23,480 nt of DNA from a virus. Shown piece by piece: positions 1 to 23,071 of the stretch. The position numbers were made by a program, and so were the translations under genes. Position 1 is the first letter of the stretch; each line of letters starts with the position of its first letter. Where the stretch lies: the IMG/VR virus record IMGVR_UViG_3300037587_000005, positions 1-23,480 of that record. One strand, written 5' to 3'. The notes beneath the pieces are model-generated. The model ran no database searches, had not been told where the DNA came from, and worked only from the letters and a program-made list of their open reading frames with translations.

Positions 1-107
1 CCTAAGTATACGTATACGTGTTCTTTGTCTATGTAACCTAAAGTAAAATCTATAGGGTACAATGTTTGTATACCGTTACTTGTGTAAGTGCGTATTGTTT
101 TAGCCAT
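1..107 (-). CDS. Tail fibre protein, N-terminal fragment (gp17-like)
   Basis: The gene starts with ATG at 107-105 and runs off the left edge, so only about 35 residues are visible. They begin MAKTIRTYTSNGIQTLYPID and continue FTLGYIDKEHVYVYL. This matches the opening of the T7 gp17 tail-fibre N-terminal domain, which anchors the fibre to the tail: a short beta-rich segment of the type 'T-Y-x-S/L-x-G-x-x-x-x-x-F'. The position, directly after the internal virion protein and lysozyme genes, is also where autographiviruses carry the fibre. The stop of the lysozyme gene and this start share one base (TAATG), and an AAGGAA ribosome site lies just upstream. The receptor-binding part is outside the window. 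Confidence 0.8.
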   Translation of the reverse strand, partial: MAKTIRTYTSNGIQTLYPIDFTLGYIDKEHVYVYL

Positions 108-631
108 TACTCTTGTTCCTTAGCATATGTAAGTAGTGCCGCATGTGCTTTATCAAAGCGTTTGTGTACACCTGAACCATTCTTCTTAGAGCGTCTGTAA
201 TCGTTGTTGTCTAACAATTCTTCTGCTGCTTGTTCTGGTTTACTCGCGTTTAAATGTTTTACCCATTTATGACTCGCCTTTAGACTACCTCTATATGCTA
301 AATCCGTTAGTACGTCTTTAACATAACTGGGGTAACTCGCGTAGTTATCAATGTGCTTCTTTGCTGCCGCTTCACGTTCTTTGAATGCTTCTTTAAATGT
401 GGCATCTTTCAAATCACCTGTGCGCCCTGCTCCTGTAGTACTGACTCCTTTAGTATCTATGTAGTCACCCTCTACAAATCCTTCGTGGCGTACCACATAC
501 TTCTGTCTATCTGTAAGGTTACCCTCGCGTGATTCAACTTGTTTTACTGCATCCTCACCAAAGGATTGTTTAGGGGTTACTTTTTTTACTAGGAGTACTA
601 GCATCAGAGCCAGTAGGTACTTCCACTTCAT
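107..631 (-). CDS. GH24 (T4-type) lysozyme with N-terminal hydrophobic anchor
   Basis: Predicted muramidase of 174 aa that would cut the peptidoglycan glycan strand. The T4 lysozyme triad is visible as E50, D59 and T65, with exactly the family spacing (E-8-D-5-T): the sequence reads RHEGF, then YIDT, then STTGAGRTG. The following helical region (about 80-165) fits the rest of the fold, and 174 aa is normal for GH24 endolysins. Residues 1-17 (MKWKYLLALMLVLLVKK) form a short hydrophobic stretch flanked by lysines, which could be a signal-anchor-release (SAR) segment or an export signal. The first 62 nt overlap the 3' end of the gp16-like gene in another frame, and the ribosome site is weak, so translation may be coupled. 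It could be the endolysin, or a virion-associated lysozyme used at entry. The sequence alone does not decide. Confidence 0.85.
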   Translation of the reverse strand: MKWKYLLALMLVLLVKKVTPKQSFGEDAVKQVESREGNLTDRQKYVVRHEGFVEGDYIDTKGVSTTGAGRTGDLKDATFKEAFKEREAAAKKHIDNYASYPSYVKDVLTDLAYRGSLKASHKWVKHLNASKPEQAAEELLDNNDYRRSKKNGSGVHKRFDKAHAALLTYAKEQE

Positions 632-3600
632 CTAATGTCTCACGTATACCAATAGATAGCGCTTCAAACAACGCTAAGTTATTTAAAGGTATTGTCTGTT
701 CTGCTGAGTCTATTAAACCTTGTATGTCACCACTCGCTGCTGATTTACCTGCGCTGTAGTAGTCTTTAAGTAATCCCATTACTGGCACGTTGTCTTTCAT
801 AAATCTAAATGTTTTATTAGAGACTTGTTCAGTACTGTTACCCTCTGTCGCATACTTGGCTGTGTCATAGAAACCTGTTACTAAGTCTATCGCATCAGGG
901 TACATACCTAGTGGGGTAATGTACTTATCAGTTTGCATCTTCTGTTTAATGGTATTTATATTCGTGTTCTTCTCGAACTCGTCTTCATCACCTGTTAATG
1001 CTAAACCTACCGCTGCTAATCCTACAAACTTACTGTATCGAATTAGTCCTGACAGTGCTGTGTTTAACGCAACACCCATTACCGCTTCTGTATCAGCGAA
1101 CGCTAAACTACGCGCTAATGACTTGTTGTTTGCTACTATCGGCATCTGACGGAACTGGAAGATTAATGCCATCATTGGCTTGTTCAACCAACTAGGCATT
1201 TCTCCTACTAGAGTCTGTTGTATCTGCTGTGCTTCATCACGCAACATAGCGTAGTGTAGTTGTGCTACTACATCCTTGTCCCATTTGTCAATGTTTAACT
1301 TCTGTAGTATGTCACCCTTAAACTCTGCATGTTTCTTGAACATAGCTGCAAGTTCGGAGTTCTTTCCTAATGAGTCTGTTAAACCTAGGTCAGCCATACG
1401 GGAGTTACCCATTTTACCAGTGCCATTTCGGAAGTGTTTGGCTACATCTAACATAAAGCTTGCTTGTACTACACGTGATTGCGCTCTGCGTGTCATGTTG
1501 TACATACTAAGTTTACCTAATCCTCGACCTGCTGTTGCTTTAGCCGAACCAAAGGTTGCTTTGTCTGCGATAGTTGCTGTCATTTTACGTAGTGGGCTTA
1601 ATTCAGACATCATGGTTTGGTCAAGCTGTATGCTATCTCTACGCATGTGTTCTAAGTCGTCAGTGATGTTAGATACACTAACTATCTCTGCCATTAAGTC
1701 TTTCTCGCTCTCAGTCTTTCTAGCCATGTTAATAATCTTCTTGGCTACTTCTGGTTGCTCGAATGCTCCACGTAGTACACGTATTGCTACTTGTCCTGTT
1801 TCAGCCATTTGTGCTGTTCCAAGACCACCCATTTTAGTGAGTGCTGATAAACGTTTCAAGGAGTTAAGTTCAGGTGCTAAACCTTTCGTCTTACTCAGTA
1901 TGTTGGACGTTGGTCTACCAAACAACTGGTCGATAGTGTCCTCAAACATCATAAGGTTCTTGATTTGTTGTTGCTTACTTACACCCTTGGTCTTCATTTC
2001 GTCAACCATGTTTGCTTTAAACAAGTCTATATCAGCTTGAGAGTTCAACATACCTTTAGTGGCTTTAGTTATACCTAACCATCCTGCGGTACGATTACTG
2101 TATCTCTCTGCTACGCCTATAACTTCTGTGTCCATTAGGTCTACTAATGTACCACCCTCTACGTCTATAGTAGTGTCGAAATCATAACGTGACTTTGCAC
2201 GTACATCTGTTTGCATTGACTGACTTATACCATCGAAGTTATCAAATTCACCACGCATGATGTCATTCACTAACTGTTCTGCTACTTCGTCTGCTTCTGC
2301 TTTATTCATAGGGTTTGTCTGTGACTTCTGTAGCCCTACTGAGAATCTACGTTTAGCTACATCAACACCTACTTTTGCTACCTTGTGTTTCTGCCAGATA
2401 TGAGGATAGTAGTGTTTAATCTTCTTATCCTTATGGAACCCTGCTACTTGTTCATCAGCTAGGCGATTGTGGTTATGCTCCATGTATTTATCCCACTGGT
2501 CTACAAAGTCTGTTACTGACTTATCCATATGGTCTACTGGCTTACCTTGTCGTCTTAACTCTTGAACTTGTATAACGTCATTATTAAATGCGTCTACCAT
2601 TGGTTCGTCTATACCTGCTTTCTCACGTGCTTTGAACTGTGTTAACGCTCCTTTACCCTTAGATGATACATAGTCTGTTATGTGTTTCTTGTAGGGAGCT
2701 GCAATTAATGTCATGGATTCAAGAAATTCACCATGCTTAATTAATGCGGCTGTAGGGGGTCTGCGAGCCATGCCACCGAATCCGCGCCCAACTTCGGTAA
2801 TGTTAAACCCAAAATATTTCATGCTCGTTAAATCGCTTTCTAGGAACACCTGACCGACATCTTTTGTCCACTTTTGCATAATTCTACCAGTATAGTCTAA
2901 TGCACCCGTAGGTTTCATTGCTATCTCTGCTAGTTGCTCACCACCACTCGCTACGAAGTCATGTAGTCCCACTGCTATCTTGTCAGTAGTATCTATAGTC
3001 TTCTTCTCAAGTGCTGCCTCTACTCGCCACACAGCTTCCTGTACGTCTTGTGGAGTGAACTTCGTCGTAGGTACATTACCATCACGTACTGCTGCCATGT
3101 TGATATCTTTGGCTGTTAGTACTGTTTGTAATGCTTGCTCCTTTAACTCCGCTTGTGTGGGTACTTTTGCGAATAATGCATCTAAACGCTCTTTACGCTT
3201 TTGTGGTTCGTTAGCTTTTTCAATCTCAGCATTCTTCTTGCGTACAACTGCTTCTTGGTGAACTGAATCAGCCACTCTAAGTAGGTCAGTCATATCTTGT
3301 ATGCTGCCACGTTCTGACCATGCTTGGATAGTCTTGTGTGGTTTTCTTAAGAAACTCTTACGAATACGTTCTAGACGTAGTTGTTGTACTGCACGTTCAT
3401 CCTTACCTTTAGGAACTGTTGCACCTGTGCGTCTGTTGATACGTTTTAGTTTATCAAGTAGCCCAGTTACATTCTTAACTGTAGGGTCGTCGAATGCTTT
3501 TACTTGGTCTTCTGTAGTAAAGCTACGAGGAAGTATTTCTCCATCACCTGCGTCTTTTATTAAAGTTACTGTAGGTTCACCCTCTTCATTTCGTAGTGTA

Positions 3601-6065
3601 CCTACTTCACGCTCTTTGAGATTACCTACTTCCTGTACTTCTTTTGATACAGGTACAGACTCTCTACGTAACTCTTTAACACGCTGTTTGGTAATACTCT
3701 TACCTTGAGGTGATTTGGGGTCGATACCTTGCTCTGCTAACTCCTGCTGCACTTTGCGTAGAATGTCTACTCCTGTTGCTTTAGGCGCTGCATGGGGTAC
3801 TACTTTAGGTTGTACTGGTATGTCACTCTTCATGCGTTCTAGTAGTAAACCGTTAAGTTGTTCTACTGTACTTTGCCATTCAGGTTGTCTACGAGCCATT
3901 TCATTAAGCTGTAGTACATCGAGTATCATTGAATTCTGTTCAGACAAGTTAGTTACTAACCCACCTAAATCTTCTGGATTCATTGTCTCACCTGCGAGTT
4001 CTTTACCTACACCACTCTTAAAGTTCTCTCTAGTAACTGGTGCTACCTTCTGTCCTTTAAAGTGTGATGAACCCATTAAGTCCATTACGTAGTTACGAAA
4101 GTCTGTCAAGTTACCACCAGTCAAAGCTTTCTCTAATGCTCTGTCTGATTTAATGGTGCGCTGTGTGTGACTAACTCGTTTAACGTCCTGTTGTAGTGAC
4201 CTTGGTACCTTACCATCAGGGAAAGTTGCAGCTATATGAAGTACTTCTGCATTCATCTTTTCTAGTAATTCTTCTGGTAGGTCTGTACGTTTAGACAGTT
4301 TGTTCTGACGTTTTACTAACCACCATATAGGACTGTTCTCAGGTAACTGTGTTAGTAGTCTAGGTGTGAGTTCTCTGAACCCACTTGACTTCACTGAGTC
4401 GATTACTGCCCATTCATTAAACTTAGGTCTAACTACGCTTTGTGATGGGGTTATCTCAGAGATTTTAGTCTCGTCTTCTTTAGCTTTGAATGTAACTTGT
4501 TCGCCTAACGACTGTCCCCAGTTATTAACTGTGGAAGTTGCATCGGTACCTGCTTGTACTACTATTGACGCTGTGTATTGCACACTAGTAGGGTCAAAGT
4601 GTTGAGGTACATTATGGTGTAATGCGTTGTTCTCTATGTCACGAGCAAGTTGTTTATACTGCTCTCGCATAACAATCCAGTCACCACGCTTACGGAGTAA
4701 TGGTTTTACACCACCTTCTACAAGTCCACCTATGCCTAGACCAAATGCACCACCAAATACCATTTCCATCATGTGATCTTTCGAGTTATACGTGTGGTCA
4801 CCTGATAGTCTAGGGTACGTTTGTATAGCGGTTTCCGCTACACCTGCCCCTGTCCATGCAGATAACTTGGCTACGTTTGTGAATACCTGTCCTTGTGCCC
4901 AAGTACGTGTACCTGCCATGTACGCTCCCTGAGAGAACGTCTTAGCTGCTTGTACACCTGCCATACCTGCTTTAGCTATAGGAGCCGCAGGGATAATCGT
5001 CAAGGGGTCTGCTATGATAGCTGCTGCACCATAACCAAACTGTGCGTACCATGCAAGATTATCAAACACTTTATTGTTCTTAATATCTTCTTGCAACTGG
5101 TCTTTGTATTTCATTGCAGAGTACTCGTTAAAGTTCTCCGCTTCTTCCAATACCAGTGCATGATACTGTGGTGCTAGTCCTTTAGTAAGTTCGTCCTTAC
5201 CTATATCGTAGTCACCACCGAAACGTCTTGCACGCCCTAGTTCACTAGTATCCTGTAGGTTAGCCATACTGTTCATTTGAGAGAACGAGGCATCCATCTT
5301 TTGCCAAAATGTTGGTAAAGCGTCAGGACGTTTAGTTTGTGTCAAATGCGAATTACGTACTGCACGATTGTACATAGCCTTGCGGTCAGACCGTCTAAAG
5401 AACCAGTCCATAACAGACTTACTATCACTAGTGTCTATCTGTGTTAAGTCCTTGTGAGACTCACTTCCCCAACCTGCATTCATGTGTCTAAATCTAGCCA
5501 CTTTACTTGGGTCAGTATATAAGTTCTTCATGGCAGTATCTAAGTCTGCTTGAGTAGCTGTGCCATTCTTGAAGTCGTTATATGTTTTAGTGAACGAACC
5601 TTGTTGTTCTTTGACTACGTTGTACTCGTCTTGTGTCAACGGTTCGCGCATGTCACTATATTGGTAAGGTGTATTCTTTGAGAAGTATTCTTTGTATTCA
5701 TTATGTAAGTTAGGGTCTTGGTGTTCACCATACTTCGTGTAGTATGACGTATAACCTTGGTCTAATTTAACGAACTGGTCGTCAATCTCTACACCATCAA
5801 TTACACGCGATACACCTGATACTGTTCGACCGAAGTGGTCTTTCCCATAATCGTGCTTGATTAGTTCACTACCTGTAGGCATAATATCTTTAGCAAACTC
5901 TGTTGCTTGTTCACCTTCTGGTGTGTTTCTACGCTCGTCGGGGTGTACTGATTCAGGTGTGTCTATGAATCCTTGTCTTACTGTCTCACTAGAATGAAGT
6001 TGATTACCTTTACCCTGTGAGGTGACAATTGTATCACCATCTATTACTTTGGTAACTGTAGTCAT
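570..6065 (-). CDS. Giant internal virion (ejection) protein, gp16-like, with N-terminal SNase-type nuclease domain
   Basis: This 1831-aa protein sits where T7 encodes gp16, the DNA-ejection conduit protein (about 1300 aa), and is much longer. Residues 1-110 form a staphylococcal-nuclease-like domain: VIDGDT (D9, D11), VRQGFIDTPE (R30, D35, T36, E38), a PEGEQA helix (from P49) and HFGRTV (R80). Residues 340-372 and 434-450 are hydrophobic and Gly/Ala-rich. The middle (roughly 850-1050) is charged and probably helical or coiled. The C-terminal third has gp16-type features, including an FQFRQMP segment near 1630 and a hydrophobic stretch near 1662-1691, as expected for a membrane-spanning ejection protein. 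I see no transglycosylase domain of the kind T7 gp16 carries. A ribosome site (AAGAGAGA) precedes the start. The gp16-like assignment is firm; nuclease activity is inferred from conserved residues. Confidence 0.87.
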   Translation of the reverse strand: MTTVTKVIDGDTIVTSQGKGNQLHSSETVRQGFIDTPESVHPDERRNTPEGEQATEFAKDIMPTGSELIKHDYGKDHFGRTVSGVSRVIDGVEIDDQFVKLDQGYTSYYTKYGEHQDPNLHNEYKEYFSKNTPYQYSDMREPLTQDEYNVVKEQQGSFTKTYNDFKNGTATQADLDTAMKNLYTDPSKVARFRHMNAGWGSESHKDLTQIDTSDSKSVMDWFFRRSDRKAMYNRAVRNSHLTQTKRPDALPTFWQKMDASFSQMNSMANLQDTSELGRARRFGGDYDIGKDELTKGLAPQYHALVLEEAENFNEYSAMKYKDQLQEDIKNNKVFDNLAWYAQFGYGAAAIIADPLTIIPAAPIAKAGMAGVQAAKTFSQGAYMAGTRTWAQGQVFTNVAKLSAWTGAGVAETAIQTYPRLSGDHTYNSKDHMMEMVFGGAFGLGIGGLVEGGVKPLLRKRGDWIVMREQYKQLARDIENNALHHNVPQHFDPTSVQYTASIVVQAGTDATSTVNNWGQSLGEQVTFKAKEDETKISEITPSQSVVRPKFNEWAVIDSVKSSGFRELTPRLLTQLPENSPIWWLVKRQNKLSKRTDLPEELLEKMNAEVLHIAATFPDGKVPRSLQQDVKRVSHTQRTIKSDRALEKALTGGNLTDFRNYVMDLMGSSHFKGQKVAPVTRENFKSGVGKELAGETMNPEDLGGLVTNLSEQNSMILDVLQLNEMARRQPEWQSTVEQLNGLLLERMKSDIPVQPKVVPHAAPKATGVDILRKVQQELAEQGIDPKSPQGKSITKQRVKELRRESVPVSKEVQEVGNLKEREVGTLRNEEGEPTVTLIKDAGDGEILPRSFTTEDQVKAFDDPTVKNVTGLLDKLKRINRRTGATVPKGKDERAVQQLRLERIRKSFLRKPHKTIQAWSERGSIQDMTDLLRVADSVHQEAVVRKKNAEIEKANEPQKRKERLDALFAKVPTQAELKEQALQTVLTAKDINMAAVRDGNVPTTKFTPQDVQEAVWRVEAALEKKTIDTTDKIAVGLHDFVASGGEQLAEIAMKPTGALDYTGRIMQKWTKDVGQVFLESDLTSMKYFGFNITEVGRGFGGMARRPPTAALIKHGEFLESMTLIAAPYKKHITDYVSSKGKGALTQFKAREKAGIDEPMVDAFNNDVIQVQELRRQGKPVDHMDKSVTDFVDQWDKYMEHNHNRLADEQVAGFHKDKKIKHYYPHIWQKHKVAKVGVDVAKRRFSVGLQKSQTNPMNKAEADEVAEQLVNDIMRGEFDNFDGISQSMQTDVRAKSRYDFDTTIDVEGGTLVDLMDTEVIGVAERYSNRTAGWLGITKATKGMLNSQADIDLFKANMVDEMKTKGVSKQQQIKNLMMFEDTIDQLFGRPTSNILSKTKGLAPELNSLKRLSALTKMGGLGTAQMAETGQVAIRVLRGAFEQPEVAKKIINMARKTESEKDLMAEIVSVSNITDDLEHMRRDSIQLDQTMMSELSPLRKMTATIADKATFGSAKATAGRGLGKLSMYNMTRRAQSRVVQASFMLDVAKHFRNGTGKMGNSRMADLGLTDSLGKNSELAAMFKKHAEFKGDILQKLNIDKWDKDVVAQLHYAMLRDEAQQIQQTLVGEMPSWLNKPMMALIFQFRQMPIVANNKSLARSLAFADTEAVMGVALNTALSGLIRYSKFVGLAAVGLALTGDEDEFEKNTNINTIKQKMQTDKYITPLGMYPDAIDLVTGFYDTAKYATEGNSTEQVSNKTFRFMKDNVPVMGLLKDYYSAGKSAASGDIQGLIDSAEQTIPLNNLALFEALSIGIRETLDEVEVPTGSDASTPSKKSNP

Positions 6066-6075
6066 ATTATCTCTC

Positions 6076-8340
6076 TTATAAGTTCTTTAAGTTGTCAAGG
6101 CTACTACGCAACCACTCAGTTTCTTTGAGTTCTGCTTCTCGCCTAGCCGTTTCGTGCATTTCTGCTACTCTTGCGTTCTGTTTCATAGCGCGAGTTATCT
6201 CTATCAATTCTTCTACAGGTAACGATACAGGAGTCTGAAACTTAGGGTGGTCAATGAGAATACCTTGTGTGTTGTCTAATACTGTGATTGTTAAATCTAC
6301 ACTAGACAAGTCTCCAATACTCTTTGCTGTGTCACCTTGGGAATCTTCTGTTTTACCAAGTCCTGCTGCTAGTACACCCTGCATTATATTAAAGTTAGGT
6401 GTTTGTATAGCTTCCATTACTTGAGGTAAACTGTAACCGTTAAGGTCTTTCTCGAACTGTTCTGCACCATAAATCATTTGACCACGATACATACTACCAC
6501 TCGATTGTAATGAATCGTACAGGTATTCTTTAGCGAAGTCGTGACTACCCTTACCTAATCGTAAGCCTCTATTATAAGAGTCTATGTATTGGTATAGTTC
6601 TGTACTGTTGGGTTCTCTAGCAATCTTGTTGTTAACTAACATAGTTACATGGTCTTGCTTAGATTCGTGCTTAACTAATCCCCAATCCTGTATAGTAGTA
6701 TCTCGCCCTTCATCCCATAGTTGTACTTCACGCTCAGTTTGCTCTAATGTTTTACCATTACGAGTTGCCGCTTGTACTACTACAAACCTATCATAGTCCT
6801 GTGCACCTAATTCTGTACGTAGTCTACCACGGTTAGCTGAACTCATTTGGTTGATAAGATTAAAGCTTCTTACACCTTGTTCATTCAGTTGCCCGTTTTC
6901 ATCACGTAATGCAGGACTAGTCATACCTGATACTAATGAGGTTGCTAATGCTTTCCCCATAGTTGAATCGAAGTCTGACTGTGCCCATTGCTGTATAAAT
7001 GCTGTACTTGCTTTAGGGTCAGACAATACTGCGCTCGTAGCTTCTTCTGCTGTGAGGTTGTCTTGACCAATAGCGTTACCTACAATATCTGTGAGGTTAC
7101 TATCTGCCGCCGCTTTGGACTCTTTAATAGTCGGGTTGATACCATTAATTGCCGCAGCGTTGCCATTGGTTGCTTGTATTTGTGCAAGCTTTAATTGGTC
7201 TGCTGTCGCGGCATCTGTGGCAGTTTCAGCGTAGTTGGTAATAGCTTTATCTACTATTGTTGCAACTGACTTTCTCATAGCACTAGTGTTCTTCTTATAC
7301 AAGTCTGTGCCTGATGTTCTATCTTCGTGTTCCACTAGAGTAGCTTCGATGTCTTTCATTGTCTGCTCAAACTCTTCTTCTGTTTTCACAGTTTGTAGTT
7401 GTGCGTCTAATTCATTGACTGACGTTACCATACGATAGTTTGATTCTTTATCGTAAGTTGCTATTGCTTTGTCTGTTGCTGCCAACTCTTTAGTAGACTT
7501 GCCTTTATACCACCCTGCACCCTTCATCATGTTGTAGATACCAATGTTCCCGTTCTTTAGGGAGTGGTTGATTTCTTCATCCATTACGGTGCGTTTGGCT
7601 GTATCAGACATACCCACAGGGAAGCCTTCTAAGTTAGCTAGTCTACCTGCTGTACCTGCTAGTTCCTCTGCCTCGTCTGGTGTTGACACTAGGTTTGCAT
7701 TAATGTTAACTACATCAAATACACCTCGTACCCATTCACTTGCGAGTCTACGGTTCTCCATTTGCTTGAAGCCATAGTGTGACTTAGCTTGTGCATGTAC
7801 TAACTTCTCTGATGATGCCGCCCATTGATTAGTAATCAACTGCTTGGTTTCAGGGTCGTCTGCGTGTTGTTCTAGTTGCACATCTAATGCGCCTTTCAAA
7901 CGGGTAGAATACTCTTCACCTGTGTCGGCTGCAAATTCATCTATAGTAGATGCTTGTTCTATGTACATCTGTTGGATGTTGTTTGTTACTGCACGTTGCT
8001 GTGCTGCACGGTACTCGATGTCTTCACCGAATACAAACTTCTCCCAACCTACACGTTTCTTACCTTCATCAATGGCGTTAACTGCTTTGTCGCTACCTTG
8101 TCGTATCGACGCGTCTAGTTTACGTTGTTCATTAATATTGTTTGCTTCTGCTGCTAATAATCCTTGGAGGCTATTACCTAGTGAAGCACCTAAGTTACTT
8201 ACTCCTGCACTTACGTCAGACTCCACTTTCACAGACTGTGACGTACCACTACCTTCAAACTTACGAACCGCAGGTGGGTTTACTGTACCTGCGTTCGCGT
8301 CTGATGTAGCGTTTCTTGCAGGTAATCCAAACTCTGCCAT
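6076..8340 (-). CDS. Internal virion protein, gp15-like
   Basis: A 754-aa protein, very close in length to T7 gp15 (about 747 aa) and in the same position, between the gp14-like and gp16-like genes. In T7, gp14, gp15 and gp16 form the internal core that is ejected into the cell and forms the DNA channel and motor in the periplasm. The N-terminus is flexible and Ser/Gly-rich. It is followed by long predicted helices, for example around the AEANNINEQRKLDASIRQG stretch, and the C-terminus is charged (RREAELKETEWLRSSLDNLK). No enzymatic motif or membrane segment is evident. The start is preceded by AGGATTT, and only 10 nt separate its stop from the gp16-like start. The call rests mainly on size, position and helical character. 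Confidence 0.78.
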   Translation of the reverse strand: MAEFGLPARNATSDANAGTVNPPAVRKFEGSGTSQSVKVESDVSAGVSNLGASLGNSLQGLLAAEANNINEQRKLDASIRQGSDKAVNAIDEGKKRVGWEKFVFGEDIEYRAAQQRAVTNNIQQMYIEQASTIDEFAADTGEEYSTRLKGALDVQLEQHADDPETKQLITNQWAASSEKLVHAQAKSHYGFKQMENRRLASEWVRGVFDVVNINANLVSTPDEAEELAGTAGRLANLEGFPVGMSDTAKRTVMDEEINHSLKNGNIGIYNMMKGAGWYKGKSTKELAATDKAIATYDKESNYRMVTSVNELDAQLQTVKTEEEFEQTMKDIEATLVEHEDRTSGTDLYKKNTSAMRKSVATIVDKAITNYAETATDAATADQLKLAQIQATNGNAAAINGINPTIKESKAAADSNLTDIVGNAIGQDNLTAEEATSAVLSDPKASTAFIQQWAQSDFDSTMGKALATSLVSGMTSPALRDENGQLNEQGVRSFNLINQMSSANRGRLRTELGAQDYDRFVVVQAATRNGKTLEQTEREVQLWDEGRDTTIQDWGLVKHESKQDHVTMLVNNKIAREPNSTELYQYIDSYNRGLRLGKGSHDFAKEYLYDSLQSSGSMYRGQMIYGAEQFEKDLNGYSLPQVMEAIQTPNFNIMQGVLAAGLGKTEDSQGDTAKSIGDLSSVDLTITVLDNTQGILIDHPKFQTPVSLPVEELIEITRAMKQNARVAEMHETARREAELKETEWLRSSLDNLKNL

Positions 8341-8341
8341 G

Positions 8342-8878
8342 TTAAATCCTCGCTGTACCTACATCTGTAGGCGCACTAGCTAGTGCTTCACCTATTTGTA
8401 AATCGTTTACATCAATCTTAGATGCAGCGTTAAGTAAGTTACCTACTATAGAGGGCTCTCTGTGCTGTATGTTTGATTGCATATTCATGGTCGCATTAAA
8501 TACTTCTGTACGTAGAGTTTCTTTAGACTGCTCTGCTTTCCGCTTGTTACCTGCTATAGCAAATGATTCATTCGCCTCGGTCTGGTAAAGAGCTGCTTCT
8601 ACTGAACCACCATTTACTCCTGACGCTGCCGCTTGCACACGGATTGCTGCTTCTGCTTCATCCTGTTGTTGTGCTACTTTCACGTTGGACAGTATTCTAT
8701 CTTGGTTTACTGCGTTGATGTTCCTACTTGCGTTAGTACGAACTCGACTGGCTGCTAGTTTACTAGAGTAAGATTGGAACTCACTGTTGTATCTAGCAAC
8801 TGTTTCTGCTGATTCTACACCTGCTAAACCGCTTGCGAATTGAATACCCGACTGTACTGCCATTGCGTACATTGCCAT
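8342..8878 (-). CDS. Internal virion protein, gp14-like
   Basis: A 178-aa protein encoded between tail tubular protein B and the gp15-like gene, the T7 gp14 position (T7 gp14 is about 196 aa). The N-terminus (MAMYAMAVQSGIQFASGLAG) is hydrophobic. It is followed by a long Ala/Gln/Asn/Ser-rich helical region and by the AAASGVNGGSV turn. A turn of this kind, flanked by helices, is common in gp14-type proteins of many podophages. In T7, gp14 enters the outer membrane during ejection and forms the outer part of the DNA channel. The start shares one base with the stop of the tail tubular B gene (TAATG at 8880-8876), with GGGAGAATA just upstream as ribosome site. No catalytic motif is visible. Confidence 0.75.
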   Translation of the reverse strand: MAMYAMAVQSGIQFASGLAGVESAETVARYNSEFQSYSSKLAASRVRTNASRNINAVNQDRILSNVKVAQQQDEAEAAIRVQAAASGVNGGSVEAALYQTEANESFAIAGNKRKAEQSKETLRTEVFNATMNMQSNIQHREPSIVGNLLNAASKIDVNDLQIGEALASAPTDVGTARI

Positions 8879-11256
8879 TATATTCTCCCACTTGTTTTAT
8901 GATACTGACCAGACCAACTTATACCTGCTATAGTCATACCTAAGAAACCGTCTGTACGTAATTGCGTCTCAGAGTGTTCTGCTTCTTGTGAGTAACTGAA
9001 CTTTAAGTCACCTGTCAGTGCGTTTCTCTCACCGACTGTTGTAAGTATATTACCCATAACTTTACCAGTGAATTTCTGGTCTGCTACTGGTGCGTACTTA
9101 GCGAGTGTTCTTAAAATTAGTTCGTGTGTGTCTACTACGTTAATAGTCCACCGCGATATTCTAATACGGTCAGTTGTTATTGGTATACCTTCTTCATCTC
9201 TTCTATATGGACGAGTTAGTGTGTACCATGACGACCATGGTTTACCTATGTACACTTCACATGCTTGACCATTAGATATACCTTCTTCAAAGATAAGTTG
9301 GTTGCCTTGTTGTGTGTACGGTACTTCCCATAATGGGTAGCTAGTATTCAAGCCACTAACTAACATGGTGTCTTCTGCTATTATGTAACCGTCTGGTATA
9401 GTTATTGCAAATCCATCTGACGCTACTGTAGTCATATAATCTAAGAATACTTCGTCAGTATCAGTAGTTACTCTGTCGTACAGACGTACTGTTTGTATTA
9501 CAATACTCTCGCTCTCTTTAGAGATTACCGTTAGTGTATCATCTTTGAATTCTAGACCAATGATGTGTACAGTTTCAGGAAACTCCCAGATACTCCACGA
9601 CTTTTGTACCTTCTTAGTGTTATGTATGGTGTACTCAAATATAAATACTTTATTAGAGTTATCTATATTGTCTGTTGTCATAGCCACAATATTGGAGTTA
9701 ACACTACCTACTAGGTGTGTATGTGTTCCTTTCATGTAGTTTACAACGTGACGAGTCATACTGTCACCTGTGTCCTGCTCAGTATTCTTACGTGTGTCAT
9801 ACTCTAGCAATCCTGCACTAGCTCCATGAGACATAGGTATTAATACACTATCACCCATTTCTATAGGTGACACGGTAGTTACACATTCAAATGAGGCTAC
9901 CTTTGGCATAGATACTGTTTGTGGTGTTATTGCTTGTTCACCTGTTATCTTGTACTGACCATTTTCTGCTGTGAAGAATAAGTCTTTATTGTGGTTGCTT
10001 ATAAACTGTATGTTGTTAGTATCAACTGCATTAGAACTTATATGTATAGGGTCGGTTACTAATAATGTAACGGCTGATGCTCTCCACCAGTTTAGTAAGT
10101 CGTCGGTCTCTGTCATAAAGACTTCACCATCGGCTATAAATACTAAACGATTTTGAAAGTGTCCTATGTCGTCTATCTTCTTACCTATAAATTTAGGTAC
10201 TTTAGCGGAATTGTCGTCACCTGTTCTACGCTCTTTCCAACTCTCTGCATCATATACAAACTGTGTATCATCCCATTGGATGCGGTGAGGCATGTTAGTA
10301 TTATCTAGTGCGTATGGTTCTGTCGGTGCACGTGTTTCTGCCCACACAACTTCTTCCATGTAATAATCGGGGTCTGCTTCATTCTCAACTGTTCTAGCTG
10401 CTTTTAAGTAGTAGATACCCTTTTCAGATAGTGGGTTAGGTTTGATTTGTACTATAGAACCATCTATTGCATATAGAGGTAAACCGTCTACATTTTCAAT
10501 AGTTCTGTTTATAGCTACTGTTGACCTATCACCTTGACCAGTCATTACATATATGTCTACGAAGTCAGAGTTGTCGTTTAGGTATATAGCCACAGACGAA
10601 CCTAGACTATACGCAGTCTTTGTTGTGTTAAACCACGCCTCCGCGTTTAGGGCTGCTGCTAGTTCTGATGCTACATTAGCAGTTGCTCTCGCTTTGTCTG
10701 CTGTGTCGTAATCAGGTGTTGCTCCTAAGTCTGGAACTTGGAAGTGTACCTGTGTGGCAGGTGAATCTGCTATACTACCCACACCAACTGATACTGTCTC
10801 ACCATAGTTTAGTGCGCTAGTAACATTAATGTATGATACTTTACGGTAGTCTGATTCAGTGTCCGTAGACATGTAGGGTGCTTTATCTTTATTCAACACA
10901 TACGTGGTATCTTTTACTGTTTTAAGTACAGTGTTACTACCTATGTAATCAGAGAAGCCTGTCCACGTATCTTCTAATTCATCGTTCTTGAAACAATAAA
11001 TTGTACCCAATGTCTTGTCCACTATAAAGCGGAATGTGTCATTGTCTGATTGATAAGAGTGTTGTATAAAGTCGTTGTCTAACGTTATACCGTTAAGTAG
11101 TTCTTTGTGCCAACGTAACGATGGTCGTCTTGTTAACTTGTTCACAGGGTCAGAGCGTAAGTTTACTTGCTCACCTGCTCGACCAATTGCTCTGTTTCTA
11201 GGAGCTAATGTACTAACCCCTTGTATCGGAGTTGGTAGGTTACTTTCTATTCTCAT
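8878..11256 (-). CDS. Tail tubular protein B (nozzle), gp12-like
   Basis: A 792-aa protein matching T7 gp12 in size (794 aa) and position. In T7-like virions six copies form the tail nozzle below the gp11 ring and contact the fibres. The N-terminus has the family pattern of a short 'P-I-Q-G-V-S' segment followed by R-x-G-Q, then N-L-R-S-D-P and R-R-P-S-L (residues about 8-48). The remainder is beta-rich, with many YxxxD/T segments, as expected for the beta-propeller-like nozzle. The C-terminus ends in a GMTIAGISWSGQYH region, also typical of the family. An AGGGA ribosome site precedes the start, and only 8 nt separate it from the gp11-like stop. Confidence 0.88.
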   Translation of the reverse strand: MRIESNLPTPIQGVSTLAPRNRAIGRAGEQVNLRSDPVNKLTRRPSLRWHKELLNGITLDNDFIQHSYQSDNDTFRFIVDKTLGTIYCFKNDELEDTWTGFSDYIGSNTVLKTVKDTTYVLNKDKAPYMSTDTESDYRKVSYINVTSALNYGETVSVGVGSIADSPATQVHFQVPDLGATPDYDTADKARATANVASELAAALNAEAWFNTTKTAYSLGSSVAIYLNDNSDFVDIYVMTGQGDRSTVAINRTIENVDGLPLYAIDGSIVQIKPNPLSEKGIYYLKAARTVENEADPDYYMEEVVWAETRAPTEPYALDNTNMPHRIQWDDTQFVYDAESWKERRTGDDNSAKVPKFIGKKIDDIGHFQNRLVFIADGEVFMTETDDLLNWWRASAVTLLVTDPIHISSNAVDTNNIQFISNHNKDLFFTAENGQYKITGEQAITPQTVSMPKVASFECVTTVSPIEMGDSVLIPMSHGASAGLLEYDTRKNTEQDTGDSMTRHVVNYMKGTHTHLVGSVNSNIVAMTTDNIDNSNKVFIFEYTIHNTKKVQKSWSIWEFPETVHIIGLEFKDDTLTVISKESESIVIQTVRLYDRVTTDTDEVFLDYMTTVASDGFAITIPDGYIIAEDTMLVSGLNTSYPLWEVPYTQQGNQLIFEEGISNGQACEVYIGKPWSSWYTLTRPYRRDEEGIPITTDRIRISRWTINVVDTHELILRTLAKYAPVADQKFTGKVMGNILTTVGERNALTGDLKFSYSQEAEHSETQLRTDGFLGMTIAGISWSGQYHKTSGRI

Positions 11257-11264
11257 ATCTGTCC

Positions 11265-11858
11265 CTAACCGTTTGGTCGTAGTCCTATGTTCGCTCTGTT
11301 GTACGGTTGTACACCACCACGTGCATAGCGTATGCGACTGTTATTAAATACATTCACTTGTGTTGATTCTAAATCTTCTGCATCTAGTTCCAACTTAGCC
11401 ATACCTGCTTTAACTTCAAAGCGTTGTGCTTTAGTAGAATCTTCTATCTCGTCGTCTATAAAGTCTACTGCTGCTGTGTATGCTATGTAATCCTGCATAG
11501 ACTCCGGTAATACTACCCATTCAAATCGACGTACTACTCGTATAGTTTCTACTGAGGTATTTATCAGATACGTTTGATTTATCTTGTCGTATACTTTACC
11601 GCCTCTGTTTACGTAGTCACTAATACATGGTACAAACTTGACAATTTCTTTTGGTATTGATACCTCACCGTCTACATTGGCTTGATACGTTACCGCATAG
11701 TCTGTGTTGTACCACCACCCTCTCTTTTGTACTCTATTAGATACACGACTTAAAGTCGCTCTCGCGTTAGATACATCAGGTTGGTCGGTGCTTATCGAAT
11801 TGACAGGGTTGGAACCTATTGCTCGTAGCATCATATTGACTGCTTCTAGTTCTGTCAT
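11265..11858 (-). CDS. Tail tubular protein A (head-tail adaptor), gp11-like
   Basis: A 197-aa protein with the size (T7 gp11 is 196 aa) and N-terminal signature of tail tubular protein A: TELEAVNMMLRAIGSNPVNS, then a helix ending KRGWWYNTDY at about 50. In T7 twelve copies form the adaptor ring between portal and nozzle. It sits directly upstream of the nozzle gene and just downstream of the capsid terminator, as in T7. A strong AAGGAA ribosome site lies 6-8 nt before the ATG. Read-through past the terminator, or a promoter not recognised here, must supply its transcript. Confidence 0.9.
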   Translation of the reverse strand: MTELEAVNMMLRAIGSNPVNSISTDQPDVSNARATLSRVSNRVQKRGWWYNTDYAVTYQANVDGEVSIPKEIVKFVPCISDYVNRGGKVYDKINQTYLINTSVETIRVVRRFEWVVLPESMQDYIAYTAAVDFIDDEIEDSTKAQRFEVKAGMAKLELDAEDLESTQVNVFNNSRIRYARGGVQPYNRANIGLRPNG

Positions 11859-11878
11859 TTTGTTATTCCTTGCAAGAG

Positions 11879-11908
11879 AAAAAACATATATCCAGCCACG
11901 GACATATG
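11879..11908 (-). terminator. Intrinsic terminator after the capsid gene (T-phi-like position)
   Basis: On the minus strand, CATATGTCC (11908-11900), a six-base loop (GTGGCT) and GGATATATG (11893-11885) form a 9-bp stem with one G-U pair. Six T residues follow immediately (11884-11879). This is a textbook rho-independent terminator, located between the capsid gene and the tail tubular A gene. T7 places its phage-polymerase terminator T-phi there too. It should favour high capsid expression with reduced read-through to the tail genes. Two more stem-loops lie directly upstream (see the neighbouring entry). Confidence 0.85.
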
Positions 11909-11952
11909 AAGAGTTTAAAGTAACTCTTATAAGAGAACCTCGTTAGAAGTCC
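11909..11952 (-). other. Tandem stem-loops in the capsid 3' untranslated region
   Basis: Between the capsid stop codon and the terminator the minus strand can form two further hairpins. The first is GGACTTC / GAGGTTC with loop TAAC (11952-11935, two G-U pairs). The second is AAGAGTT / AACTCTT with loop ACTTTA (11928-11909). The palindrome CTCTTATAAGAG (11923-11934) could compete with the second. These probably protect the 3' end of the capsid transcript or serve as RNase processing sites; that role is inferred. An AGGAGG just upstream is not followed by a start codon. Confidence 0.5.
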
Positions 11953-11973
11953 TCCTAAAGTATTACTTATTGT

Positions 11974-12955
11974 CTACGCTACGGAAGACTTAAAGATACC
12001 ACCTGCCATTTCGGCACGGTTTGGTGTTACTGCGAACGCTAAGTAGCTATCAATGAACCACTGCATTTCTTTCTTATCGAAGTAAACGTCAGAAGTTAAT
12101 GGGATAGTCTCACCTGCTAGTAATGCTTTTGGCATTAATAAACAAGCTACACATTTCTCGTCGTTAGCTGTTACGTCATACGCGTTACCATTACCTGCGT
12201 TAGATAAGAAGTGTGTAACTCCTACGTCTGTTGCTTTAGGGAAACGGTTAGTAACTTGAATACGAATACCATTCGACTTCAATACGTTACCTTCTGCGTA
12301 GTCACCATTACTGGTAGAGAAGTCACGACTAACTAACTTGTCGTTCTTCAATAGCGCGTAGTATTGAGCAGGGCGAACTAAGATAACTGCATCTTCTAAT
12401 TCTACGTCCTTCTCTTCTACTTTCTGACTCAAGTCCTGAATAGCAATTTCAAATGCTAACGGGTCTAACTCGTCATCTACTGCGCTTAGTACTAATACTG
12501 TACCACCTTGGAAACCTTCTGGTGCTGTGCGTACGATGTTGGCAGGAGTCTCACCTGCCCAACCACCTAACGTTACACCCTCTGGGTCTACGTTGGTAAT
12601 CTGACTTGCCTTGATACCTTGGATAAGGAATGACTCGTCAAAGAACTTACCGATAGTCTTACCATGTTCTAAGCCGACTTCCATGCGAGTGTTGATGTGA
12701 GATAAGAAAGCATCTAATACGAATTCGTTAGAACGCGCTAATACTACTGTATCTACTTTAACACTGATGTTGTCGAAAGTTGGTGAACTATCAGTCGGAC
12801 GTACACCACGAGTTACTTTCTGTAACGAACTATAACCGATACGGTCATTAGTAATCGTGTCTGTACCACGTACTGTTTTGAAGTTAAAGAACTGGCGCAT
12901 GAAAGACTTCTTCAAGAAACGATGTTCTACTTCACCACCATACTGTTCAATGTAA
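11974..12955 (-). CDS. Major capsid protein, exon 2 (gp10A-like; residues 29-355 after splicing)
   Basis: Main coding part of the capsid protein. After predicted splicing to exon 1 (13754-13839) the junction codon is CTT, and the protein reads NPLYIEQYGGEVEHRF across it, 355 aa in all (T7 gp10A is 345 aa). The 'Y-I-E-Q-Y-G-G-E-V' stretch aligns with the 'LFLKVFGGEVLTAF' start of the T7 HK97-type fold. It is followed by the FFNFKTVRGTDTITNDRIG strand (E-loop region), VRPTDSSPTFDNI, and the helix DAFLSHINTRMEVGLEHGK. An apparently intact frame starting at ATG 13011 includes 18 codons of intron. That ATG lies inside intron helix P9 and lacks a ribosome site, so I reject it as the start. The gene ends with TAG at 11976-11974. 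Confidence 0.9.
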
Positions 12956-13753
12956 CTTTGTATTCTAATCACTGCGTTAATGTGACCACGTTCTCTTATG
13001 AACTGCTGCATGTTCCCATACAGAATAGACTATATCTTATACCATGAATGGTATGATGGCGCTTCGAGTTCACTTGAACCCTACTCCTCCCTTGAGGATA
13101 GTCGTTGCACCTTACTTAGTAATCGGGTAATACTTACCATTGTCATTAATGACTCTATTAACTGTACCATTACCTACACTAACTTCTCTAGCTATCTTTC
13201 GTTGACTCCAGCCTAGTTTACTAAGTTCTTTTATCTTAGTTGCGAGTGCTGGTGTTACTACTGCTAATGAGTGTGTATATCCTGTTTGTCTAGTTAATCC
13301 TAATGCGTGTGCGTGTATAGAGTTCTCTCTATGTGTTACCCACTCTAGGTTGTTCACATGGTTGTTTTGTTTATTACCATCTTTATGATTTATACAACGT
13401 TTATCATGTTCGTTGTCCTCACCAAATAACTCCATCACTAGCCTATGCGGGTATATATTCTTATACCCTGCATCACCTGTGTGTGAGCGTAGTTGTATTC
13501 TTAAATACCCATGACCGTTGTCGAACGGTTTCTTCCATAGGTTACTTTTGAACGACCACACTCTACCTGTTACGGTTACACCATAACTAGGGAAGTTTTT
13601 ATGTATTCTTAATTCTGCTTGTTGCATTTTATATCCTGTTTAACAGTTGCAATTATTACTAAGTCTTGGCTCAGTATTACCCTTTAGGGCTTCCACTGAG
13701 TTCACCATCTTATAATTCTACCTATTACTAAGTAGAACGCCTTACATTATGAA
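12956..13753 (-). ncRNA. Group I self-splicing intron (IA-type) in the major capsid gene
   Basis: A 798-nt intron with a complete set of helices on the minus strand. P1: exon CGCT plus intron TT (13757-13752) with AAGGCG (13743-13738), giving the conserved U-G pair at the 5' splice site. P2: 13737-13732 / 13721-13716. P3: GATGGTG (13709-13703) / CGCCATC (13061-13055). P4: CTCAGT (13700-13695) / ACTGAG (13675-13670). P5 hairpin: 13690-13679. P6a: 13664-13655 / 13123-13114. P7: GACTAT (13103-13098) / ATAGTC (13033-13028). P7.1: 13097-13086. P7.2: 13080-13067. P8: 13054-13039. P9: 13023-13006. P9.1-like hairpin: 13003-12990. P10: exon-2 TTACATT (12955-12949) with AATGTAA (13748-13742). The last intron base is G. 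From memory, the P7-P9 part closely resembles the T4 td intron. P7.1 and P7.2 mark subgroup IA. The intron holds an HNH gene in its P6 loop and gives a stop codon soon after the 5' splice site when unspliced. Confidence 0.95.
13112..13627 (-). CDS. Intron-encoded HNH homing endonuclease
   Basis: A 171-aa protein lying wholly within the capsid intron, in the loop of P6. Residues 15-33 (YGVTVTGRVWSFKSNLWKK) form a NUMOD4-like segment. Residues 60-108 are an HNH domain: PHRLV (H61), INHKDGNKQNNHVNNLEWVT (H81, N84 and N90-N93 region) and R/ENS. Residues 139-160 (GWSQRKIAREVSVGNGTVNR) form a helix-turn-helix, as in NUMOD1-type DNA-binding tails. Such enzymes cut the intronless allele, so repair copies the intron in. 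An ACAGGA ribosome site lies 7 nt upstream of the start. The stop codon and last codons (PITK) overlap the 3' strand of P6a (13114-13123), so coding and ribozyme structure share bases. Expected target: the capsid gene around codons 28-29. Confidence 0.92.
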   Translation of the reverse strand: MQQAELRIHKNFPSYGVTVTGRVWSFKSNLWKKPFDNGHGYLRIQLRSHTGDAGYKNIYPHRLVMELFGEDNEHDKRCINHKDGNKQNNHVNNLEWVTHRENSIHAHALGLTRQTGYTHSLAVVTPALATKIKELSKLGWSQRKIAREVSVGNGTVNRVINDNGKYYPITK

Positions 13754-13839
13754 AGCGGGTTGACATTACCTGTGTCCTGACCACCTTGGTGACCTGAACG
13801 TGTGATGTCTGCTGATGTTGGTTGTCCTAAAATTGACAT
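13754..13839 (-). CDS. Major capsid protein, exon 1 (N-terminal 28 codons plus 2 nt)
   Basis: A short 5' exon reading MSILGQPTSADITRSGHQGG then QDTGNVNP, plus the first two bases (CT) of a Leu codon completed by exon 2. The flexible, Gln/Gly-rich start is typical of T7-like capsid N-arms, which lie inside the shell. The strongest ribosome site of the region, AGGAGA at 13853-13848, sits 8 nt before the ATG, as expected for the most highly made protein. Without splicing, translation would stop after 30 residues (CTT TCA TAA). The exon is too short to be picked up by ordinary gene finding, so it is easily missed. Confidence 0.92.
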
Positions 13840-13847
13840 TTATTGAT

Positions 13848-13853
13848 TCTCCT
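13848..13853 (-). promoter_or_regulatory. Ribosome binding site of the major capsid gene
   Basis: AGGAGA on the minus strand, 8 nt upstream of the exon-1 ATG at 13839. It is strong and well spaced, and it decides in favour of the exon-1 start over the ATG at 13011, which has nothing similar upstream. Confidence 0.8.
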
Positions 13854-13864
13854 GAATCGTTATG

Positions 13865-13911
13865 GTTCTCCATGTTGCATTCTTAGCTACACTATTCATG
13901 GTTAGGAGAAC
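13865..13911 (-). other. Stem-loop in the scaffold-capsid intergenic gap
   Basis: GTTCT (13911-13907) and CCATG (13901-13897) pair with CATGG (13874-13870) and AGAAC (13869-13865), giving a 10-bp stem with a 5-nt bulge and a 22-nt loop. No T-run follows, so it is not an intrinsic terminator. It may be an RNase processing site or mRNA-stabilising element in front of the capsid message. T7-like phages often have a phage promoter in this gap, but I cannot identify one here. Confidence 0.4.
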
Positions 13912-13918
13912 TCAATTT

Positions 13919-14767
13919 TTAATAACCGCGACTACGACTTCTGTCTCGTCTACGGTTCAATGCTACAATTTCTGGACTATTTTCGCTTTTCCCACTATCC
14001 AGTAACTTACGAAGTTCTGTGTTGTAGGAATGCTTGTCCAATGGTTTACCACCATACTCTTTCGATGTATCGTCACCCTGCATTAATTGTGCAGGTTGCG
14101 CGATAAAAGAGTCGCTGCCTTTAAAGGCTTTAATCAAATGTTCTACTGCTGCTTTGGCTTGGAAGCCACCTGCTGCAAGCATGGCATTGACACCATTTCT
14201 ATCTTCTGCTGACATGTTCTTCTTAGCCCATCCACTAAGCTCGTTCCAAGTGTCCTTACCCGATTGGGTAGTGGTATCTTTGAAAGCTTCTTGTACGGAA
14301 CTAAAAATCTGTTTGTCTGCTGCTTTTGCTGCACCTACATTGGATTCGTGTATAACACGTAGCTTATCTGCTATTAATCCTGCAATTGCTTCACCATGTT
14401 TGTCTACTAGAGCTTTCATGGTTTCTAATGGTATCGCACCGTTTTCTTGAGTCACACCTAACGCTACGTCAGATGGTTTCAAACCTGCATCAGTCAAAAA
14501 TGACTCGACCTGTTTTACTGCGTCTGCGTTGAACTTTGTGGGTTCTGGTGTGGGTTCCTCTTTTGGAGGTTCCTCACCTATTGGTGCTTCTTTAACGGGG
14601 TCACCATCTGGTGTAGGTTCTTCCTTTACAATAGGCTCCTGTGTAGGTGCTTCTTTTGTAATGGGGTTACCCTGTTCATCTAAGTTTGGGTTGTTCTTCC
14701 AATCTTGATTCGGTGATGGTGTCTCTGTCGGTGTACTATTGTCTGGTGCTTTTATTAGGTCTGTCAT
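13919..14767 (-). CDS. Capsid assembly scaffolding protein (gp9-like)
   Basis: A 282-aa acidic protein between portal and capsid genes, the position and approximate size of T7 gp9 (about 307 aa). Residues 1-80 are Pro/Glu/Thr-rich and disordered, with repeated KEEPTP / KEAPIGEEPP-type units. The middle (80-210) is helical. The C-terminus is strongly basic (NRRRDRSRSRGY), as in scaffolds whose C-terminus contacts the capsid shell. The protein would direct procapsid assembly and then leave. Its ATG shares one base with the portal stop (TAATG at 14769-14765), with AGGAC upstream. Confidence 0.87.
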   Translation of the reverse strand: MTDLIKAPDNSTPTETPSPNQDWKNNPNLDEQGNPITKEAPTQEPIVKEEPTPDGDPVKEAPIGEEPPKEEPTPEPTKFNADAVKQVESFLTDAGLKPSDVALGVTQENGAIPLETMKALVDKHGEAIAGLIADKLRVIHESNVGAAKAADKQIFSSVQEAFKDTTTQSGKDTWNELSGWAKKNMSAEDRNGVNAMLAAGGFQAKAAVEHLIKAFKGSDSFIAQPAQLMQGDDTSKEYGGKPLDKHSYNTELRKLLDSGKSENSPEIVALNRRRDRSRSRGY

Positions 14768-21634: not shown

Positions 21635-22650
21635 TACACACCTGCCTTTATTTGTATGTATGCGAGTCTTTTAAACTCTTTCAATGCTGTTACTTGTGCG
21701 CCACTGAAACCACATGCTAATCCACTCTCTTGTAAGAAGTTTATAACGTCACTTGGTTTACCTGTTCTACGCATCCATAGTAAGAACGCTTGTTCTACTA
21801 ACATTTCCACAGCATTCGTATAGTGTCCTTGATAAGCCTCTAAACAGCGCTTTGCAGCTTCTCTATCGGTACGGACACCTTTTAGTATAGCGACAGCTTT
21901 TGCCTCGCCACATTGCAGCGCCTTGCGCTTAGGATTGTACGTTTTAGTGGGCAAATAGCGATTGGCTAATTTACCAGAAATTTTAGGTAGACCTGCAATA
22001 TTATCGGCAGTATCACCCATCAATAATTGATGCCAAAACCACCCTGTGCCGTAGCCTACGAGCTTAGGTTGAAGATTTCCGACATCTTGATATGAAACTG
22101 TGCCATATCCATTTGCACGTACCATTTTGCCTGTCTTTTGGTCACAATGGAGTCCCATTGCCATATTCAAGTCTTTGTCACCTGACATTATCACCGACAA
22201 GTTCTTAGCATTCTCTATACCACTATGTAACATCTTGTGTTGATGTTGTGTCATCGAGTCATCGGCTTCTTGTAGTAAGTTAACTACTGGTGTGACATTC
22301 TCAGTCTGGTAGCTAACAAGGAAGTTACGTAGTATTGCTACTCGTTCTTTAACCTCAACATTCTGCCCTGAGCGTTGTGCCTGATAAGGCTTAACTGTTG
22401 CAATTTGTTCTCGTCCACCTTTCATACCTAATGTGATATGATTGTTTACGAATTGCGCTCCTGCTAATTTACGTTTAATCTCTATGTGTTTCTTTAGTGC
22501 TCTGATGTTTGAATCCACTGACTCGTCTAACCAACAACCACATTCGTAGGCTCCAAAATCTGCGTCATACTGTAGAATTCTCCCACTTACGTAGGCGTTT
22601 TGTTGACTGTCAGATTGTGCTGCCGCCTTTGCCATCTCTGTAATATTCAT
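21634..22650 (-). CDS. 5'-3' exonuclease, T7 gp6 / FEN type
   Basis: A 338-aa flap-endonuclease/exonuclease of the T7 gp6 class, used to remove RNA primers and degrade host DNA. The acidic metal-binding residues fall in family order: RILQYDADFGAYE (D29, D31), LLQEADDSM (E128, D130, D131), SVIMSGDKDLNM (D158, D160), and the helix-3-turn-helix segment LMGDTADNIAGLPKISGK (D213, D216). A lysine/arginine-rich arch region is seen at about 76-101 (KGGREQIATVKPYQAQRSG). The start given (MNITEM) overlaps the HNH-AP2 gene by 41 nt. A second ATG five codons on (MAKAAAQ) is a possible alternative; all motifs remain either way. It would act with the DNA polymerase, expected to lie upstream of the window. 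Confidence 0.92.
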   Translation of the reverse strand: MNITEMAKAAAQSDSQQNAYVSGRILQYDADFGAYECGCWLDESVDSNIRALKKHIEIKRKLAGAQFVNNHITLGMKGGREQIATVKPYQAQRSGQNVEVKERVAILRNFLVSYQTENVTPVVNLLQEADDSMTQHQHKMLHSGIENAKNLSVIMSGDKDLNMAMGLHCDQKTGKMVRANGYGTVSYQDVGNLQPKLVGYGTGWFWHQLLMGDTADNIAGLPKISGKLANRYLPTKTYNPKRKALQCGEAKAVAILKGVRTDREAAKRCLEAYQGHYTNAVEMLVEQAFLLWMRRTGKPSDVINFLQESGLACGFSGAQVTALKEFKRLAYIQIKAGV

Positions 22651-23071
22651 GCTCTAATTCTGTCCTATCTTTCTTTGCTTGTTCTAAATCGAAAGTTGCT
22701 TTCTTTCGTCGTCTACCATTTATTGTATTAACGTATGCGTAGAATGAACCACTTCTGTTTACACCTACTCCCTTTACACCTGTTGTGGAGTGTTTACGCA
22801 AACTGGTGTTTCTGCAATTTTCAGTGTTTGTGACCTCACGTAAGTTGTTAGGGTGGTTGTTTGTTTTGTCTCTGTCTATATGGTCTACATACGCAGGTAA
22901 ATAGCCGTGAACTAACCCAAACACTATTCTGTGTATTCTGTAAGGTACACCATCTATAGATGTAGTCGGATAGCCTAAGCTATCCAACCCACCTAATAAT
23001 GGTCTGTCTTTATAGATTGAGAATACAATGTTATTTCGTAATTCGAATTTAGATTGTATTATCTTTATCAT
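22610..23071 (-). CDS. HNH homing endonuclease with AP2 DNA-binding domain
   Basis: A 153-aa selfish endonuclease. Residues 44-90 form an HNH domain: YRIHRIVF (H47), VDHIDRDKTNNHPNNLREVT (H64, N75 and N76 region) and NTEN. Residues 98-145 form an AP2/ERF-type DNA-binding domain (GVKGVGVNRSGSFYAYV, then ATFDLEQAKKDRTE). This HNH-AP2 architecture is typical of free-standing phage homing endonucleases. It starts on a TAATG overlap with the acidic-tailed gene and runs 41 nt into the exonuclease gene. No ribozyme core is seen around it, so it seems intron-less, inserted between two replication genes. It probably cuts related phage genomes lacking it at this locus. Confidence 0.9.
   Translation of the reverse strand: MIKIIQSKFELRNNIVFSIYKDRPLLGGLDSLGYPTTSIDGVPYRIHRIVFGLVHGYLPAYVDHIDRDKTNNHPNNLREVTNTENCRNTSLRKHSTTGVKGVGVNRSGSFYAYVNTINGRRRKKATFDLEQAKKDRTELEHEYYRDGKGGSTI

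Follow-up and report, generated by a model that had tools for sequence, protein, structure and literature searches.

Internal virion proteins of the gp16 type are the first phage proteins to enter the host cell, and their enzymatic tip is regarded as a cutter of the cell wall. The locus described here raises the question of what a nuclease would be doing at that tip. The window, i.e. the whole stretch of DNA analyzed, is a 23,480-base IMG/VR virus record from a T7-like phage that is kin to marine Alteromonas phages. Its minus strand carries late genes in the T7-type order, namely portal, scaffold, capsid, tail tubes A and B, gp14, a protein in the position of gp15, a gp16-like protein and a lysozyme-family protein. 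The tail, gp14 and capsid genes have PHROG matches and follow an order identical to that of the Alteromonas phage H4/4; beyond the lysozyme gene, at the window edge, lies a partial ORF that, judged by eye, is tail-fiber-like, and the succession typical of gp16 genes (tail tube A, tail tube B, gp14, gp15, gp16, tail fiber) is found here. Separate genes in the window code for endonuclease VII and a 5'-3' exonuclease. On the minus strand, 13112-13627 and 22610-23071 are free-standing genes for HNH_3 endonucleases; one lies close to the capsid gene, the other immediately ahead of the exonuclease gene, and both are likely to be mobile homing-type elements.

The gp16-like protein and its N-terminal domain

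The features at the center of the analysis are the following.

6076..8340, minus strand: internal virion protein in the gp15 position, assigned by position only (synteny with H4/4 gp38, 'putative internal virion protein')
570..6065, minus strand: predicted gp16-like internal virion (ejection) protein of 1831 aa with an N-terminal staphylococcal nuclease (SNase) domain (ORF and translation; phrog_37474, E = 0; phrog_342)
654..5453, minus strand: T7-family gp16 homology past the lytic domain, residues 205-1804 (phrog_342 from profile position 161)
5712..6065, minus strand: SNase (OB-fold nuclease) domain, residues 1-118 (PF00565; PDB sequence search; AlphaFold model compared with S. aureus nuclease)

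The predicted product of the ORF 6065-570 is a T7 gp16-like internal virion protein. Its residues 205-1804 match profile positions 161-1219 of phrog_342, 'internal virion protein with endolysin domain' (E = 2e-70), it matches annotated internal virion proteins in tblastn searches, and its gene lies directly downstream of that of the gp15-position protein, for which a family search gave no match above noise. The transglycosylase domain of T7 gp16 comprises residues 1-156 (PMC8954989), and since the homology sets in at position 161, just past it, the SNase domain occupies the slot of the T7 cell-wall enzyme, at the same end where an earlier note on this DNA had placed it. Residues 1-150 match SNase only, in place of the peptidoglycan hydrolase found at the N-terminus of the gp16 type. 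P22-like gp16 proteins likewise have no hydrolase domain (PMC8954989), so that its absence does not exclude membership in the gp16 family.

The earlier note had read the span 5736-6065 (minus strand), which corresponds to residues 1-110 of the ORF, as an SNase domain on the N-terminus of a gp16-like protein, and profile, sequence and structure comparisons all agree with this reading. N-terminal fragments of 150 and 130 aa score 25.9 and 26.3 bits, respectively, against PF00565, above the cut-off of 21. A Pfam scan of the full 1831-aa protein gives no match, because of which whole-protein annotation overlooks the domain; a PF00565 search of the window's own genome likewise returned no match although the domain is present, and was not counted as absence. 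PF00565 is matched by 10 of 11 members with the SNase-gp16 architecture (E up to 1), and PHROG 452, 'endonuclease', matches residues 1-115 with E = 5e-11 even within the full protein. In a PDB sequence search S. aureus nuclease ranks first, with E = 1.7e-4 for the window sequence alone (phmmer) and E = 1.7e-9 for an 11-sequence profile. An AlphaFold model of residues 1-240, built on a 15-sequence alignment (pLDDT 84), has the strand and helix order of SNase and superimposes on S. aureus nuclease with a Z-score of about 11 (11.2 with VIA-align) and an rmsd of 2.4-2.5 over 117 residues; Foldseek assigns the model to the SNase-type OB-fold with E = 1.2e-6. The N-terminus of this gp16 thus almost certainly has the SNase fold, and a chance motif match is ruled out by the profile, structure and conservation tests.

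Active-site conservation and distribution of the fusion

The catalytic residues (R35, E43 and R87 in SNase numbering) and the metal ligands (D21, D40 and T41) are all present in the window. Residues D9, D11, R30, D35, T36, E38 and R80 align with SNase D19, D21, R35, D40, T41, E43 and R87, respectively, which bears out in full the seven-residue signature that had been noticed by inspection.

6033..6041, minus strand: D9-G10-D11 (SNase D19/D21), both Asp invariant in 15 aligned sequences
5976..5978, minus strand: R30 (SNase R35), invariant (15/15)
5952..5963, minus strand: D35-T36-P37-E38 (SNase D40-T41-P42-E43), E38 invariant, T36 in 14/15
5826..5828, minus strand: R80 (SNase R87), invariant (15/15)

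In the alignment of 15 diverse proteins (36-83% identical within the set), five of the seven active-site columns, D19, D21, R35, E43 and R87, are invariant. The T41 column holds T in all but one sequence (V in L006), and the D40 column holds N in 12 of 15, D in two (the window and L015) and Q in L006. Conservation across these seven columns far exceeds that of columns drawn at random from the domain (p = 3e-5) or from its polar columns only (p = 4e-5). The domain is under purifying selection, with dN/dS of 0.08-0.12 in three pairs. Across 13 phages, distances between SNase domains track those between the C-terminal regions of gp16 (r = 0.71, Mantel p = 1e-4), and the domain is therefore an ancient component of this gp16 lineage that has been passed on vertically. 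Judged by these residues, the domain is quite likely to be catalytically active, although some relatives may have weaker activity or none because the calcium ligand D40 is mostly replaced by N and, in L006, by Q together with the T41 to V change. In L006 (5359-5778) the metal-site motif reads GFTQVGESVH in place of GxINTPESVH while R35, E43 and R87 are kept, possibly an inactive or altered-metal version. Bacterial SNase matches have D at position 40 in 74 of 77 cases; N40 is therefore a feature of the gp16 group, with the qualification that the scan patterns, which allowed D and N, limited the bacterial set. This substitution may alter the metal preference of most relatives, and the metal need not be the calcium proposed in the earlier note; a characterized SNase from a mycoplasma depends on Mg, and Ca inhibits it (PMC3585158).

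The SNase-gp16 architecture is present in at least 16 distinct phage proteins, i.e. the window and at least 15 relatives. The 16 comprise the window, 14 further IMG/VR proteins (H4/4 included) and the protein of phage R8W; three of them (L023, L024 and L026) leave their contig before the conserved C-terminal gp16 region. The count rests on IMG/VR scans with a gp16-body query and with an 11-sequence SNase alignment; a viral scan with a three-sequence alignment, whose patterns were too narrow, recovered H4/4 only. The gp16-like protein has its nearest annotated relatives in the Alteromonas Foturviruses H4/4 and R8W, to which it is 37-38% identical along most of its length, and these two phages are also the sole strong SNase matches (E about 1e-40) among the matches listed for the phage collection, the others being weak and, where annotated, endonucleases or hypothetical proteins. 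Among the proteins with a complete N-terminus recovered by the gp16-body query, all except that of JSF7 carry the SNase, so that it is a steadier feature of the group than any single peptidoglycan hydrolase; the gp16 proteins of the Vibrio tawaviruses JSF7 and K437 are without it. A scan of genome contigs with the gp16 body found no relatives, and none of 77 SNase loci on genome contigs, mostly clostridial, is a gp16 (the longest ORF holding a match has 541 aa). Four further candidates (L033-L036) proved to be standalone nucleases. An SNase-like stretch also occurs in two very large phage proteins, PHROG 8809 (2317 aa) and BFVD A0A6J5NQ80 (1342 aa).

The lysozyme module around the gp16 gene

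A cell-wall enzyme is encoded next to the gp16-like gene, and its position varies among the relatives.

107..631, minus strand: phage-lysozyme-family protein (PF00959, 23.8 bits with a cut-off of 22.3; phrog_37474 positions 5-152, E = 1e-18)
581-587, minus strand: run of seven A in the gp16/lysozyme overlap (sequence and reading frames)
8498-14367 of H4/4 (L001) and 8477-14430 of R8W (L002): endolysin and SNase-gp16 region

The window lysozyme is related to the one that other members carry ahead of SNase-gp16 or fused to it. Its gene overlaps the 3' end of the gp16 gene by 62 nt (570-631, minus strand), and one A fewer in the A7 run, or a +1 shift, would bring the linker-like gp16 tail EVPTGSDASTPSKK in frame with the lysozyme, an in-frame join that exists in L130 and L013. 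The overlap may reflect frameshifting, transcript slippage or a homopolymer assembly error, or the lysozyme may be a separate gene with the short hydrophobic N-terminus MKWKYLLALMLVLLVKK.

The lysozyme is a wandering module around SNase-gp16. It follows gp16 as a gene in the window, L008 and L011 and is joined to the C-terminal end of gp16 in L130 and in L013, where the phage-lysozyme domain is clear, while a single ORF in L014 has the order lysozyme-SNase-gp16. In H4/4 the same order results from an annotated -1 frameshift: in both H4/4 and R8W the endolysin gene before SNase-gp16 ends in A_AAA_AAG, with the -1 frame open into SNase-gp16, and the SNase-gp16 of R8W also has an ATG of its own. 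The slippery sequence of H4/4 has already been reported (PMC5658483). RNA structure 3' of the slippery sites of H4/4 and R8W is no better than in shuffled sequences, and a structured frameshift signal is accordingly not claimed. L006 and L007 have an M15-peptidase-like gene, below the Pfam cut-off, after gp16. In other phages, L140 (165-3248) and L139 (5731-8814), the protein encoded upstream of gp16 carries a related lysozyme as a C-terminal fusion; the cell-wall enzyme thus shifts from one ejection protein to another, which has also been noted for K1E/K1-5 (PMC8954989).

Possible roles of the nuclease and comparison with known systems

The earlier note had the nuclease delivered into the envelope or the cytoplasm, and its leading idea was an attack on the host chromosome in the cytoplasm at the start of infection. 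The active site does look intact, but free cytoplasmic calcium is very low, few copies of gp16 are present per virion, and endonuclease VII and a 5'-3' exonuclease are available from the phage's own genes, so that host-DNA breakdown needs no virion nuclease. In T7, C-terminal parts of gp16 reach the cytoplasm, whereas the N-terminal end is periplasmic, residues 1-156 forming wings of the gp15 tunnel (PMC8954989). That topology, together with the separately encoded nucleases, therefore favors a periplasmic nuclease over a host-chromosome attacker: the envelope part of the earlier proposal stands, the cytoplasmic part is weakened, and the attack on host DNA becomes unlikely. Clearing of extracellular DNA, also suggested at the time, is set aside since gp16 stays inside the capsid until ejection.

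Alternatively, the OB-fold could have been kept as a structural or a DNA- or gp15-binding module, its catalysis incidental or lost. OB-folds often bind nucleic acid, and the N at position 40 in most relatives and the loss of D40 and T41 in L006 would be compatible with such a use; the invariance of D19, D21, R35, E43 and R87 in 15 sequences argues against it, as does the excess conservation of the seven active-site columns over other polar columns, which a purely structural role does not predict, and we regard this alternative as quite improbable. An action on the phage's own DNA, e.g. trimming or releasing the trailing genome end in packaging or ejection, is very improbable: T7 gp16 touches the genome both within the capsid and in the course of ejection, but close gp16 relatives manage without an SNase (the Vibrio tawaviruses), and SNases are largely sequence-nonspecific, hence risky.

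The best explanation overall, to which we assign a probability of roughly 0.6, is that the SNase is a virion-carried tip of gp16 that cuts non-self DNA in the envelope. The first ~118 residues would be a catalytically competent SNase-family nuclease forming the N-terminal module of a gp16-type virion protein. At infection, gp16 would exit the capsid, cross the tail and refold, leaving this module at the periplasmic face of the ejectosome and outside a gp15 tunnel that would shield the entering phage genome. A divalent metal would then switch the module on in the periplasm, where it would most likely cut envelope DNA other than the phage's own, such as the incoming or stalled genome of a rival or DNA under uptake. 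On the model of T7, packaging in the virion and periplasmic placement are expected, and delivery to the envelope by the ejectosome appears rather probable. Action in the periplasm, outside the tunnel, would easily explain how the phage's own DNA is spared on entry. As to the target, our best guess is competing or stray DNA at the entry site; a role in DNA exclusion is put forward tentatively. A first-arrival barrier, in which a periplasmic nuclease at the ejection-channel tip destroys rival phage DNA or incoming plasmids as they enter while the gp15/gp16 tunnel and, both before delivery and after it, a low-metal state shield the phage's own genome, is a still more doubtful elaboration.

Several points count against the envelope nuclease. 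A nuclease that is active while packed next to the genome, in seawater rich in calcium, calls for a safeguard; a fold completed only after ejection and steric shielding in the core stack are possibilities. The periplasm normally holds little DNA, and the post-ejection topology is carried over from T7 to gp16 proteins that are longer than that of T7.

With SNase-gp16, a DNA-cutting enzyme would probably reach the cell envelope as soon as infection begins, and a conserved nuclease at this place would make the ejectosome tip a swappable slot for other enzymes. How an active nuclease is packaged beside the phage's own genome, and whether these phages act on periplasmic DNA, can be tested in the cultured phages H4/4 and R8W. 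Scans of gp16 N-termini as fragments could find SNase in other phages, whole-protein Pfam having missed it here.

The SNase-gp16 fusion is real and conserved, and it appears to be unreported in the literature searched, in which, with incomplete coverage, no SNase in internal virion proteins was found; the main text of the polyvalent-protein paper mentions neither thermonuclease nor staphylococcal nuclease, and the papers on H4/4 (PMC5658483) and R8W do not mention a nuclease domain in gp16. With T7 gp16, the window protein shares the virion protein family, the place of the gene next to gp15 and downstream of it, and homology that sets in at about profile position 161 and continues to the C-terminus, but it is ~500 aa longer, its N-terminal enzyme is an OB-fold nuclease whereas that of T7 is a lytic transglycosylase (a peptidoglycan hydrolase), and its lysozyme is a separate module. 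S. aureus (micrococcal) nuclease and the PF00565 thermonucleases have the same fold, active-site residues and spacing but are secreted single enzymes, whereas the window domain is the tip of a virion protein; at position 40, 74 of the 77 bacterial matches have D, in contrast to the N of most gp16 relatives. PHROG 37474 (2087 aa), catalogued without a function, is likewise a lysozyme-SNase-gp16 composite, and both the gp16 and the lysozyme of the window match it. The same SNase-gp16 architecture is found in the 'putative internal virion protein' gp40/gp44 of the Foturviruses vB_AspP-H4/4 and vB_AmeP_R8W, with the domain 56-57% identical, but there the endolysin gene precedes SNase-gp16 and can be joined to it by a -1 frameshift, whereas in the window the lysozyme gene comes after gp16. 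Both parts of the fusion belong to known families; their combination is new.
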